Below the pieces are notes generated by a model. It was not told where the DNA came from. It ran no database searches and worked only from the letters and a program-made list of their open reading frames with translations. A DNA stretch of 64,000 nt from Actinomycetota bacterium (lineage in GTDB: Bacteria; Actinomycetota; UBA4738; HRBIN12): the NCBI GenBank assembly GCA_035640355.1, contig DASQWI010000017.1, positions 124,001 through 188,000 of the forward strand. The letters run 5' to 3'. Below, in pieces: positions 22,818 to 29,005 of this stretch; position 1 is the stretch's first letter; the number at the start of each line of letters is the position of its first letter. The translations under genes were made by a program, and so were the position numbers.

Positions 22818-23102
22818 GTGCCATCCGAGCGCGCGCCGAACCACCTCCGCGACTTCGTCAAGATGGGCGAGGAGGTCGAAGGCGTTATCCAGCACGTCGG
22901 ACGGGAGACCTGGGATCTCGTGCTGATCGACGTGAACGGACGATGGGTCCGTGACGAATTCCCCACCGAAGACGCCGCCGAGGCGGCGTGCCGAGAGCTC
23001 GGCGTGCGGATGCACCGAGGCTGGGACGACGCGAGGATCGTTCGCCGGATGAATGCCCGCGACCACTGGAACCGCCCCGGTGGGCAGCGCCGGGCGCTGT
23101 AA
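22818..23102 (+). CDS. Small conserved-looking protein of unknown function
   Basis: A 94-residue soluble protein between proS and rimP. It has one compact alpha/beta-looking stretch (EEVEGVIQHVGRETWDLVLIDVNGRWV, here described only in part) followed by a helical segment (TEDAAEAACRELGV) and a basic tail ending RPGGQRRAL. I do not recognise the family. Codon use has the same strong third-position GC bias as its neighbours, so it looks real and native. Its own leaderless promoter sits on the proS stop. Position beside the ribosome/transcription operon hints at RNA-related work, but nothing in the residues proves it. Confidence 0.6.
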   Translation: MPSERAPNHLRDFVKMGEEVEGVIQHVGRETWDLVLIDVNGRWVRDEFPTEDAAEAACRELGVRMHRGWDDARIVRRMNARDHWNRPGGQRRAL

Positions 23103-23157: not shown

Positions 23158-23163
23158 TATACT
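23158..23163 (+). promoter_or_regulatory. -10 element (TATACT) of the rimP-nusA-infB operon
   Basis: TATACT is close to consensus and one of the strongest -10 hexamers in the window. Transcription would start near 23170, about 25 nt before the leader terminator. No convincing -35 is visible 17-18 nt upstream. Confidence 0.6.
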
Positions 23164-23194
23164 CGTTTTCAGTAAACGGAGCGGCTGTCACCCG

Positions 23195-23221
23195 AAGTGG
23201 GCTCGCGCCCACTTTCTTTTT
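23195..23221 (+). terminator. Intrinsic terminator in the rimP-nusA leader (attenuator)
   Basis: AAGTGGGC (23195-23202), loop TCGC, GCCCACTT (23207-23214), then TCTTTTT: a complete Rho-independent terminator placed between the TATACT promoter and the operon, with the GGAGGG ribosome-binding site starting at the next base. A terminator before its own operon implies premature termination as control. NusA stimulates such terminators, so feedback by NusA is a natural inference. Leaders with terminators before rimP or nusA are known in other bacteria. Confidence 0.8.
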
Positions 23222-23240
23222 GGAGGGTGCGCTCAAAAAG

Positions 23241-23777
23241 GTGGGCGAGCGGGAGCGCGCGAACGTCGTCCCCGCGGCGCGGGGGGTGCGCTCGGTGGGT
23301 GCGACAGATCGAGGAGCCGTCGAGGAGATGGTCCGGCCGGTGGTCGAAGCGGCCGGGCTCGAGCTCTGGGACGTGGAACTTCGTGGCCAGGAGGGCCGGC
23401 CGGTCCTGCGGGTCACTGTCGACCGCGAGGGCGGCGTCGATCTCGACGCCGTCGCCGAGGTGTCGGAACGACTGTCCCGACGCCTCGACCTCGAGGACTT
23501 CTCGGATCGGCCGTACCAACTGGAGGTCAGTTCGCCCGGCGTGGAGCGGGCGCTGCGCGAGCCGCGCCACTTCGAGCGGAGCATCGGGCGGACGCTGAAG
23601 GTGAAGACGGCGGTGCCCGTCGATGGGCAGCGGGTGCATGAGGGCGCGTTGGTCTCGGCCGACGCGGAGGCGATCGTGATCGCATCCGACGGCGGAGAGC
23701 TGCGCGTCCCGTACACGGACGTCGCGTCCGCGAAGACGAAGTTCGAGTGGGGCGCAGAGAAGAGGAACCGACGATGA
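23241..23777 (+). CDS. rimP: Ribosome maturation factor RimP
   Basis: A protein of up to 178 residues needed for 30S maturation. The family core is VRPVVEAAGLELWDVELRG, RPVLRVTVDREGGVDLDAVAEVSERLS and YQLEVSSPGVERALREPRHF, with the SH3-like C-terminal domain ending at about KFEWGAEKR. The start is uncertain: GTG 23241 is 13 nt from GGAGGG; GTG 23295 gives about 160 residues, has GGGGGG 8 nt upstream and fits the usual RimP N-terminus best; a TTG at 23220 lies in the terminator T-run and is unlikely. The stop overlaps nusA (ATGA). Confidence 0.9.
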   Translation: MGERERANVVPAARGVRSVGATDRGAVEEMVRPVVEAAGLELWDVELRGQEGRPVLRVTVDREGGVDLDAVAEVSERLSRRLDLEDFSDRPYQLEVSSPGVERALREPRHFERSIGRTLKVKTAVPVDGQRVHEGALVSADAEAIVIASDGGELRVPYTDVASAKTKFEWGAEKRNRR

Positions 23778-24946
23778 ATCAGGACATGATCGCGGCGCTG
23801 AAGGAGCTCGAGCGCGAGAAGGGCATCGCGTTCGAGACGATCCTTGCCGGTCTCGAGGAGGCCATGGCGTCGGCATACAAGTCGTGGTGGAAGCAGCAGC
23901 ACCCCGAGCTGGAGGAGGAGTCGTTCGGGGTGCGCGCGAGCATCGACCCCGAGTCGGGCGACCTCCGAGTCTGGCTCCAGCAGCTCGAGGTCACCGAGCA
24001 CGAGGACGAGGAGACCGGCGAGATCACGACCGACTCCAAGGTGCTGTCCGAGGAAGAGGTCGAGGTCACCGACGAGTTCAAGGGCCGCATTGGCGCGCAG
24101 ACGGCGAAGCAGGTGATCTTCCAGAAGCTCCGCGATGCCGAGCGCGAGATGACCTACGAGGAGTTCGCCGGCCGCGAGGGCGACATCGTCACCGGCATCG
24201 TGCAGCAGTCCGAGCGCCGGTACACGCTGCTCGACCTGGGCAAGGTGGAGGCTCTGCTGCCGCAGGCCGAACAGGTACCGTCGGAGCCGTACAGAAACGG
24301 CGAGCGTCTCAAGGCGTACATCACCGAGGTCCGCCGGGGCACCAAGGGTCCGCAGATCGTCGTCTCGCGCACGCATCCGGGACTGCTGAAGAAGCTGTTC
24401 GAGCTCGAGGTACCCGAGATCGAGGAGGGGATCGTCGAGATCAGGGCGGTAGCCCGCGAGCCGGGTCACCGCTCCAAGATCGCGGTGGCCTCCCGTGAGC
24501 CGGCGGTCGATCCGGTCGGCGCGAGCGTCGGGCCGAAGGGTTCGCGCGTTCGGAACGTCGTCACGGAGCTCCGCGGCGAGAAGATCGACGTCGTGCCGTG
24601 GGCGGCCGACCCGGCCACGTTGGTGGCGAACGCCCTCCAGCCGGCCAAGGTCAAGGAGGCGCGCGTCGACGACCAGACGCAAACGGCGCTCGTGATCGTC
24701 CCCGACTACCAGCTGTCGCTGGCGATCGGGAAGGAGGGGCAGAACGCGCGCCTCGCGGCGCGTCTCACGGGATGGCGGATCGACATCAAGAGCGAGACGC
24801 AGTTCGCGGACGAGCAGCGGGGATCGCGGAGGGCCGCGCCGGCGAGCCTCGACGGAGGTTCGCACAGGCAGACGGAGGCGCCGACCGCCGATGGGCCGGT
24901 CGCGGAGCAGCCCGCCGCCGAGGAGTCCAAAGCCGCAGAAGCGTGA
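23774..24946 (+). CDS. nusA: Transcription elongation/termination factor NusA
   Basis: A 390-residue RNA polymerase-binding factor. The N-terminal domain (about 1-125) is followed by S1 (GDIVTGIVQQSERRYTLLDLG), KH1 (GLLKKLFELEVPEIEEGIVE) and KH2 (ALVIVPDYQLSLAIGKEGQ), with the conserved SVGPKGSRVRNVVTELRGEKID between. It lacks the C-terminal acidic repeats of gamma-proteobacteria, like other actinobacterial NusA. A Glu/Ala-rich tail ends the protein. It modulates pausing, termination and rRNA antitermination. ATG 23774 overlaps the rimP stop, and the leader terminator may let NusA control its own operon. Confidence 0.96.
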   Translation: MNQDMIAALKELEREKGIAFETILAGLEEAMASAYKSWWKQQHPELEEESFGVRASIDPESGDLRVWLQQLEVTEHEDEETGEITTDSKVLSEEEVEVTDEFKGRIGAQTAKQVIFQKLRDAEREMTYEEFAGREGDIVTGIVQQSERRYTLLDLGKVEALLPQAEQVPSEPYRNGERLKAYITEVRRGTKGPQIVVSRTHPGLLKKLFELEVPEIEEGIVEIRAVAREPGHRSKIAVASREPAVDPVGASVGPKGSRVRNVVTELRGEKIDVVPWAADPATLVANALQPAKVKEARVDDQTQTALVIVPDYQLSLAIGKEGQNARLAARLTGWRIDIKSETQFADEQRGSRRAAPASLDGGSHRQTEAPTADGPVAEQPAAEESKAAEA

Positions 24947-25223
24947 CCGTGAAGGCGGCGCGCGAGCCCGAGCGCACGTGCGTCGGCTGTCGCGAGCGTT
25001 CGTCGAAGCGATCGTTGCTGAGGATTGCTGCGACGCCGTCGGGCGAGATCCTCGTCGACCCGAGCGGTAGGACGCCGGGGCGCGGGGCCTACGTGCATCG
25101 GGACCCGGCGTGCGTCGCCGCCGCGTTCGCCCGGGGTGGTGCGCTGTGGCGCGCGTTGCGAGCGCAAGCGAGCACGGACGCAGCCGCTAGGCTTAGGCAC
25201 GAGATGGAGCGGGAGCTGCAGGC

Positions 25224-25227
<4 letters not shown>
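24943..25227 (+). CDS. ylxR: YlxR (DUF448) RNA-binding family protein
   Basis: A 94-residue protein of the YlxR family, nearly always encoded between nusA and infB. The signature is REPERTCVGCRER near the N-terminus, then LLRIAATPSGEILVDPSGRTPGRGAYVHRDP described here by its key residues (the GRGAYV motif). Members bind nucleic acid or RNase P and affect translation; the exact role is unsettled. GTG 24943 overlaps the nusA stop (GTGA); GTG 24949 is an alternative. The stop overlaps the infB ATG by 4 nt. Confidence 0.9.
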
Positions 25228-27302
<2,075 letters not shown>

Positions 27303-27315
27303 CCCGGCGGAGTCC

Positions 27316-27366
27316 GGGGGGTCGGAAGCGAGAGAGGTGGGCGAGTTACCACCCCCGAAATGGAGG
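27316..27366 (+). repeat. Diverged candidate copy C of the palindromic repeat
   Basis: In the 68-nt infB-ylxP spacer, GGGGGG (27316-27321), AAGCGAG (27326-27332), GGCGAG (27340-27345), CCCCCG (27352-27357) and GGAGG (27362-27366) occur in the same order and similar spacing as in the trpE and pduO copies. It is non-coding here and its GGAGG is the ylxP ribosome-binding site. Identity is patchy, so this could be chance within a GC-rich spacer. Confidence 0.4.
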
Positions 27367-27370
27367 CGAC

Positions 27371-27664
27371 GTGCTCGTCGCGCTGCAACGGTTCGACCTC
27401 CGGATCCCCGGTTGCACGTCGCTCAAGGAGAAGCGTCACGTCGTGAAGACGCTCACGTCCGCCATCCGTCAGAAGTTCAATGTTTCGGTCGCCGAGGTCG
27501 ACCACCACGACTTGTGGCAGCGAACCGCTCTCGCCGTGGCCGTCGCATCGGGGGACGGCTATCACGCCAAACGCGTGCTCCACGAGGTCGAGAGGCTCGT
27601 CGAGCGGTGGGCCGAGGTGGAGATGATCGACGCTCAGCTCACGCTGCATGCGCCGGAGGACTGA
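27371..27664 (+). CDS. ylxP: YlxP/DUF503 family protein
   Basis: A 97-residue DUF503 protein. Family motifs include LRIPGCTSLKEKRHVVKTL, KFNVSVAEVDHHDLWQRTALAVAVAS and a C-terminal helix with a conserved RLVERWAEVEMID pattern. It occurs between infB and rbfA in most firmicutes and actinobacteria; a ribosome-associated role is presumed but unproven. The GTG start at 27371 is fixed by GGAGG 4 nt upstream; longer open frame upstream belongs to the infB end. The gene overlaps or nearly abuts rbfA. Confidence 0.9.
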   Translation: MLVALQRFDLRIPGCTSLKEKRHVVKTLTSAIRQKFNVSVAEVDHHDLWQRTALAVAVASGDGYHAKRVLHEVERLVERWAEVEMIDAQLTLHAPED

Positions 27665-27671
27665 GACGCCC

Positions 27672-28031
27672 ATGACCGGTGGAGCACGACCGAGCCGCGT
27701 GTCCGAGGAGTTCCGCGAGATCTTGGCCGAAGAGATCCCCCGGCTGAAGGACCCACGGATCGGCTTCGTCACCGTGGTCGGCGTGAGGGTGACGCCCGAT
27801 CTTCGGCGAGCCCGTGTGTTCTACACGACGATGGGGGACGAACGCGCTCGGCGTGCGACCGCCGCTGCGCTGCGCTCGGCGCGCGGGCACCTTCGGAAGG
27901 TGGTCGGCGATCAGGTGCGCATGAAGGTGCTCCCGGACCTCGAGTTCGAGGAGGACGAGTCGGTCGAGACCGCGGACCGCATCGAGCAGTTGCTCCAGCA
28001 GGTTCGGCCGCCGGACGAGGGGTCGGGATGA
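27672..28031 (+). CDS. rbfA: Ribosome-binding factor A
   Basis: A 119-residue KH-type 30S assembly factor. Signatures are VSEEFREILAEEIPRLKDPRIGFVTVVGVRV and the C-terminal RMKVLPDLEFEEDESVE, given here by position and key residues (the PRIGFVTVV strand and FEEDES turn). It binds 16S rRNA near helix 1 and is needed at low temperature. ATG 27672 is chosen because GGAGGA lies 11 nt upstream and the family begins near this point; ATG 27648 would overlap ylxP by 17 nt. The stop overlaps nrnA (ATGA). Confidence 0.93.
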   Translation: MTGGARPSRVSEEFREILAEEIPRLKDPRIGFVTVVGVRVTPDLRRARVFYTTMGDERARRATAAALRSARGHLRKVVGDQVRMKVLPDLEFEEDESVETADRIEQLLQQVRPPDEGSG

Positions 28032-29005
28032 ACGAGCTCGTCGAGAAGGCCGCGACCGCGCTCGGCCGGGCCGAGTCCGTCGCCATCGCCTGTCACGTGA
28101 ATCCGGACGCCGATGCGCTCGGCGCGACCCTCGGCCTGTCGAACTTCCTCCGGGCGAGGGGCGCCCGAACGATCTGCTCGTTTCCGAACGAACCGTTCGA
28201 GCCGCCGAGGTGGCTCTCGGTGCTCCCGGGGGCCGATGCGCTCGTTCGACCCGCCGAGTTCCCCATCGAACCGGCCTTGATGGTGACGTGCGACGTCGCG
28301 TCGATGGATCGCCTCGGCATACTGGCGCGCTCTGCCGCACGCGCGCAGACGCTGATCTGGATCGACCATCACGTGAGCAACGAAGGGCTCGGAACCATCC
28401 CCCTGATCGATCCGCGCGCCAGCTCGACGTGCGAGATCGTCTGGCGGCTCATCCGGGAGATCGGCGGCGACGTGCCGGTCGAGACGGCGACGTGCCTGTA
28501 CGCGGGGATCGTCACCGATACCGGCAGGTTTCAATACGAGGCCGTCACGCCCGAGACGCTGCGGCTCGCCGCGGAGCTGCGGGAGTACCCGTTCGACCAC
28601 ACACGGCTGGTACAGGCGCTCTACGAGGACAACCCGGCCGCGTACCTCCGCCTGCTAGGGACGGCGCTCGATCGGATCACCGTCGAGGGCGACCTGATCT
28701 GGACCTACCTGACACAGGCGGATCTGGCCGCCGCGGACGTTCACGCCGCGGAGACCGACGACCTGATCGACATCGTGCGAACGGCGCGAGAGGCAGATGT
28801 CGCTGCCGTTTTGAAACAGCAGCGAGACGGGCGGTTCAAGGTGAGCGTTCGTTCGAAGGGCGGCCACGACGTGGCGACGGTCGCCTCGACGTTCGGCGGC
28901 GGCGGGCATCGGCTGGCCGCGGGGTACACGTCGAAGCATGGGCTGGCGGAGACGATCCATCGGTTGAAGACGGCGCTCCGCGGGGAACCCGCGGCCGAGG
29001 GATGA
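28028..29005 (+). CDS. nrnA: DHH/DHHA1 phosphoesterase (nanoRNase/pAp phosphatase NrnA)
   Basis: A 325-residue manganese phosphoesterase. The DHH domain carries HVNPDADALGATLGL, TCDVAS and the name motif IDHHVS; the DHHA1 domain ends with the substrate-binding GGGGHRLAAGY. NrnA-like enzymes degrade very short RNAs and convert pAp to AMP. All metal ligands are present. It is encoded between rbfA and truB, as in many firmicutes and actinobacteria, with 4-nt overlaps on both sides. The main uncertainty is substrate preference. Confidence 0.92.
   Translation: MNELVEKAATALGRAESVAIACHVNPDADALGATLGLSNFLRARGARTICSFPNEPFEPPRWLSVLPGADALVRPAEFPIEPALMVTCDVASMDRLGILARSAARAQTLIWIDHHVSNEGLGTIPLIDPRASSTCEIVWRLIREIGGDVPVETATCLYAGIVTDTGRFQYEAVTPETLRLAAELREYPFDHTRLVQALYEDNPAAYLRLLGTALDRITVEGDLIWTYLTQADLAAADVHAAETDDLIDIVRTAREADVAAVLKQQRDGRFKVSVRSKGGHDVATVASTFGGGGHRLAAGYTSKHGLAETIHRLKTALRGEPAAEG

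Follow-up and report, generated by a model that had tools for sequence, protein, structure and literature searches.

The rimP-nusA-infB operon in the window (the whole 64,000-nucleotide stretch of DNA analyzed here, part of contig C17 of a 2.79-Mb genome) is headed by a short terminator hairpin that, judged from its sequence, is a rimP-leader and not new in kind. What this analysis adds is that the rimP-leader can be followed across Actinomycetota, including families that have no rimP, where the hairpin appears to go with nusA rather than with rimP; this association is the new angle of the study. The element is probably an attenuator of the operon with NusA feedback. Lineages that have no rimP and yet keep the hairpin and its promoter before nusA are a natural experiment on whether RimP or NusA is the reader.

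The features of the element and the operon are collected in Table 1. The hairpin stem has 8 bp, five of them G-C, around the core GTGGGC (23197-23202) and GCCCAC (23207-23212); the last bases of the leader before it belong to a CGGAA block kept across the order, and the first two T's of the U-tract also pair within the stem. The stem by itself has a folding energy of -12.6 kcal/mol. A strict terminator scan (at least 8 bp, at least 5 G-C, 6 T in 9) had 23195-23221 as its sole match on both strands of the 64 kb, bearing out the terminator that the preliminary description had placed in the nusA-operon leader; in 20 first-order Markov controls of 64 kb each, the scan gave no site in 18, one site in one, and two in another. 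A lax scan of 19 kb gave five sites where 5.7 were expected, a number not above chance, and such matches carry little meaning. Against shuffles, the stability of the 61-nt leader region does not stand out (z -0.52), and the case therefore rests on the combination of hairpin and T-run together with conservation. The preliminary description also spoke of a strong TATACT promoter: the -10 box is a good one, but "strong" does not hold, as no -35 reaches consensus and a sigma-70-type promoter scan gave 0 matches. It is position and conservation, and not a -35 box, that support the putative promoter. A likeness of CACCCGAAG to helix 44 of 16S rRNA was dropped since it is without conservation in the order.

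Table 1. Features of the leader and of the operon behind it in the window
Feature	Position	Strand	Basis
-10 box TATACT	23158..23163	+	sequence; TATACT 28-38 nt before GTGGG in 22/22 distinct leaders of the order
Short leader before the hairpin	23170..23194	+	predicted start about 6-7 nt past the -10 box, from the -10 position
Terminator hairpin AAGTGGGC-tcgc-GCCCACTT	23195..23214	+	sequence, strict scan, covariation
U-tract TTTCTTTTT	23213..23221	+	sequence; T-run conserved in the order
GGAGGG, Shine-Dalgarno-like	23222..23227	+	sequence; G-rich block after the T-run in the order
rimP open frame	23220..23777	+	PF02576, PF17384; sister-species comparison; start codon uncertain
nusA (NusA_N, S1, KH domains)	23774..24946	+	PF08529, PF00575, PF13184
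ylxR	24943..25227	+	PF04296
infB (IF2)	25224..27302	+	PF11987 and others
ylxP (DUF503)	27344..27664	+	PF04456; approximate start
rbfA	27648..28031	+	PF02033
nrnA-like DHH phosphoesterase	28028..29005	+	PF01368, PF02272

The rimP-leader of Naville and Gautheret is a short terminator before rimP-nusA-infB, built of a conserved GGGc...gCCC stem and a U-stretch, without a larger conserved structure or a visible antiterminator and at a distance of 4-130 nt from the gene start; the motif is described there as absent from other terminators and the element as the most ubiquitous attenuator, with NusA as the best candidate factor, RimP raised as possible, and the choice of reader between the two left undecided (PMC2965389). 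The window shares the operon position, GTGGGC-tcgc-GCCCAC followed by TTTCTTTTT, and the G-rich 5' arm, and its distance from the stem end at 23214 to the candidate starts from TTG 23220 to GTG 23295, about 5-80 nt, falls within that range. Absence from other terminators is mostly true here as well (70 of 77 places at the operon, 7 elsewhere). The legend of Figure 2b in that paper names Firmicutes and Gammaproteobacteria, whereas the present cases are from Actinomycetota, including the families without rimP. No functional difference from the published element was found.

In Streptococcus agalactiae, the leader of gbs0413-gbs0418, the rimP-nusA operon, produces both a short and a long RNA from a single start site, the terminated RNA ends 31 nt past that site, and NusA feedback has been proposed (PMC4448216). 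As in the window, the terminator lies directly behind the start site, although the 31-nt RNA was observed while that of the window, about 50 nt, is predicted. A "minimal" leader of about 50 nt, singled out in the preliminary description, is thus not a distinguishing trait: the same spacing of promoter and hairpin is found throughout the order, forms a peak in the rest of the phylum, and has its 31-nt counterpart in S. agalactiae. The remark that a large antiterminator would not fit is no contrast either, as this is already the known form of the rimP-leader. The leader of the Escherichia coli metY-nusA-infB operon is far more complex than that of the window, with several promoters, metY, and two terminators upstream of rimP; NusA controls the operon's own transcripts, which rise on reduced termination by NusA (PMC6511841). 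The Rfam family RF01770 (rimP) has by name the same operon position and is a 102-position model; it had no match at gathering score in the window and none in 296 Actinomycetota genomes, and of 14 controls only E. coli matched. The element is missed by this model here, and a simple pattern would allow wide annotation. The E. coli metY-nusA-infB operon is reportedly also covered by Bylund 2011, and the NusA-dependent termination in Bacillus subtilis reported by Mondal 2016 may include the rimP leader. The text of PMC8060035 names neither rimP nor ylxS and does not speak of autoregulation.

The hairpin, sought in relatives as the preliminary description had proposed, is kept in the order and in the phylum, with compensatory changes at its outer pairs. 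The window's order was represented by 27 genomes (G000-G026), and the hairpin is present in 24: in 21 through 22 distinct leaders, in G004 and G025 at contig ends, and in G024 by pattern. No rimP match was obtained in G015, G016, and G023, which are 66-84% complete. Among the order leaders the core GTGGGC/GCCCAC is constant and the loop variable; further conserved columns are CGGAA before the stem, the T-run, and the G-rich block behind it, and the distance from TATACT to the core stays within the range in Table 1 in all 22. No larger conserved element or antiterminator was found in these 22 leaders, and the sole alternative stem tested is without support.

Across Actinomycetota, rimP was matched in 234 of 296 genomes, and 163 matches (160 genomes) were used, 150 of them among the matches listed and 13 others. 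The three matches of G024 were left out, giving 160 upstream regions chosen regardless of the motif, three of which end at contig ends (54, 106, and 247 nt). The motif, defined as G[TC]GGG...CCC[AG]C and then a T-run, is present in 111 of the 160 regions among the matches listed; for the same number of regions, mononucleotide shuffles gave a mean of 0.24 and a maximum of 2 in 100, and the antisense strand gave 8. The core G-C pairs are no evidence of covariation, since the search pattern itself fixes them. Among the 103 distinct hairpins in the matches listed, the first pair outside the core is A-T in 80, C-G in 10, G-T in 6, G-C in 5, T-G in 1, and A-C in 1, and the second is A-T in 46, G-T in 31, G-C in 22, T-A in 1, and other combinations in 3; in the rimP-less family f8 the second pair is typically T-A. 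Because the T-run favors A-T and G-T at these positions, the C-G and G-C pairs carry the weight. The outer pairs of the hairpin covary.

Searching the 296 genomes for the strict hairpin pattern gave 77 places, spread over 73 genomes, and 70 of these places head the rimP/nusA operon: 59 (57 genomes) are at most 600 nt upstream of rimP among the matches listed, nine others are followed by nusA, and two are at contig ends. The seven copies elsewhere (in G218, G103, G133, G205, G089:C6, G067:C160, and G248:C242; loci L290-L295 and L305) are possibly ordinary terminators, and two of them are readable in both directions. Outside the order, 49 of 87 leaders among the matches listed have a -10-like box 15-70 nt before the hairpin, compared with 13.0 for shuffled sequences, and the distances peak at 30-39 nt, so promoter, short gap, and hairpin form the usual layout.

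Not all lineages have this element. The motif is absent from 49 of the 160 rimP upstream regions among the matches listed, including all eight of family f22 (Streptomyces-like, and grouping with Streptomyces in the NusA tree), so the loop would be dispensable in part of the phylum. In family f5 the polarity is reversed: a hairpin whose C-rich arm comes first (AGCCCCTC-like/GAGGGGCT) stands at a similar place to the usual one, which it replaces, in 14 of 14 regions among the matches listed (L166, L176, L189-L192, L194, L197, L201, L208, L209, L216, L227, and L228), and the G-rich-first core is accordingly not universal. Upstream of nusA in genomes with no rimP match, the motif was found in 0 of 12 regions of f14, 0 of 2 of f46, 0 of 2 of f61, and 0 of 1 of f32, where only 139 nt were available.

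Sixty-two genomes had no rimP match. NusA was searched for in 58 of these (G015, G016, G023, and G025, of the window's order, were left out) and found in 53, and the region upstream of nusA was examined in 50; G227 and G100 were inspected on their own, and the G270 region was left out. Four families account for 29 genomes; in 28 of these the hairpin stands directly before nusA with no rimP between them, and the 29th is truncated by the end of its contig. The distance to the NusA domain is 42-61 nt in f8 (23/23), 126-237 nt in f27 (3/3), 61 nt in f6 (1/1), and 42 nt in f20 (1/2, the other region ending at the contig end); none of these gaps has room for rimP, and all three in f27 are riddled with stops. 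A TATAAT-like box precedes GTGGG by 32-42 nt in all 23 nusA leaders of f8. Searches of the 29 genomes for RimP_N, at E up to 10, and for the RimP C-terminal domain gave nothing over the cut-off, while the rimP-bearing controls G000, G031, and G045 gave matches. A relocated RimP in f8 was considered and rejected: four of the sub-threshold PF02576 matches (G044, G122, G229, and G248) lie in frames of 169-194 aa that, recognized by eye, we take to be YbeY-like. In the NusA tree (62 rows) f8 groups with f27 (99/95) and f6 with f20 (100/97), which would fit two losses of rimP best, a single loss being possible. Family f17 is probably a different case. Four of its genomes have no Pfam RimP_N match and have the hairpin 517-581 nt before nusA; an open frame fills this gap in three of three examined, so that rimP is probably present there but divergent. 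Family f8 as a whole lacks a recognizable RimP domain; its members are Actinomycetota whose genomes measure 1.2-2.1 Mb, and the loci that include it are L309, L311-L319, L321, L323-L327, L333, L335-L338, L340, and L341. With names given by resemblance, the gene order in G044 of this family is hairpin, nusA, infB, rbfA, and nrnA-like, and ylxR is seemingly also missing between nusA and infB.

In the mechanism favored here, RNA polymerase would start about 6-7 nt past TATACT and transcribe about 25 nt to the hairpin; part of the polymerases would stop at the hairpin and U-tract, releasing an RNA of about 50 nt, and the remainder would read through into the rimP-nusA-infB operon, with less read-through the more NusA, encoded by the second gene, is present. 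NusA promotes pausing and termination at hairpins. It is favored as the known operon product with this effect on hairpin-dependent termination, and also because less termination by NusA raises the level of the operon's transcripts in E. coli (PMC6511841). The anatomy, conservation, covariation, operon link, fixed promoter distance, and persistence before nusA without rimP are read directly from the DNA; we infer termination in vivo, its partial extent, and the setting of the fraction by NusA, and negative feedback by NusA in this organism is plausible.

Sensing by RimP or another ribosome-assembly factor in place of NusA is improbable. RimP was raised as possible by Naville and Gautheret (PMC2965389) and the operon usually begins with rimP, but the hairpin survives before nusA in the 28 rimP-less genomes, and the weak RimP_N matches looked at in four f8 genomes are in the presumably YbeY-like frames. 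RimP is thus unnecessary as a sensor, which favors NusA feedback; persistence without rimP removes RimP as a required sensor, yet does not by itself point to NusA over the other products of the operon, and IF2 or RbfA is a possible sensor. Retention could also mean merely that promoter and leader stayed with the operon when its first gene disappeared. A terminator of fixed efficiency, which would give constant read-through or block upstream transcription without feedback, is unlikely, though less so than sensing by RimP. Regulation is not evident from the anatomy alone, and the hairpin would also halt read-through from the open frame at 22818-23102 on the same strand. Against fixed efficiency, the core is kept far past the needs of a terminator, phylum-wide and specifically at the rimP/nusA operon, and NusA feedback has been reported for the E. 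coli operon (PMC6511841).

It is very improbable that the hairpin mainly controls translation by adjoining GGAGGG in the full-length mRNA and blocking the ribosome. The G-rich, ribosome-site-like block directly behind the T-run would suit such a role, but the T-run itself is conserved and the RimP domain lies more than 100 nt downstream in the window's genus. An outer CACCC/GGGTG stem over the ribosome site was rejected, as pairing within species was no better than between species in a permutation of partners scored by duplex energy (p 0.19), that is, shuffled partners pair equally well. That the hairpin is a mere terminator of the upstream gene, with TATACT a chance match, is barely credible: the -35 consensus is absent, but the fixed distance of TATACT in all order leaders, the -10 boxes in 23 of 23 f8 nusA leaders, and the enrichment of such boxes in the rest of the phylum speak for a promoter at this place.

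A bolder version of NusA feedback, which we hold only tentatively and think doubtful, takes the element to be a nusA leader whose shortness is the mechanism that reads free NusA, an ancient thermostat of Actinomycetota and Firmicutes that outlasts the loss of rimP. With the hairpin about 25 nt past the start, termination would occur only if NusA loads within the first 50 nt or so, and a promoter with one hairpin would sense free NusA without an antiterminator or ligand. That the early hairpin position makes timely NusA loading the measured quantity is speculation.

The operon content given in the preliminary description agrees with Pfam for rimP, nusA, ylxR, infB, ylxP/DUF503, rbfA, and nrnA/DHH; truB was left out of the scan. 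Its placing of GGAGGG immediately before rimP is a better fit to the sister species than to the window's genus, as the RimP domain begins about 115 nt past the hairpin in the window and 32-60 nt past it in most family members. Besides the two outermost candidate starts of rimP named above, there are GTG codons at 23241 and 23286. The window's genus has about 70-90 more bases between T-run and RimP domain (23222-23330 in the window) than family members have, and indels in this interval between sister species sum to three bases, so the extra bases may be a coded N-terminal extension of RimP. The rimP start region also has an 80% match over 60 bases to a repeat elsewhere in the genome, in GC-rich sequence. 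The open frame at 22818-23102 (+), of 94 aa and without a Pfam match, lies just upstream of the promoter; similar frames are also upstream in L303 and L304, and it may be a conserved unnamed neighbor.
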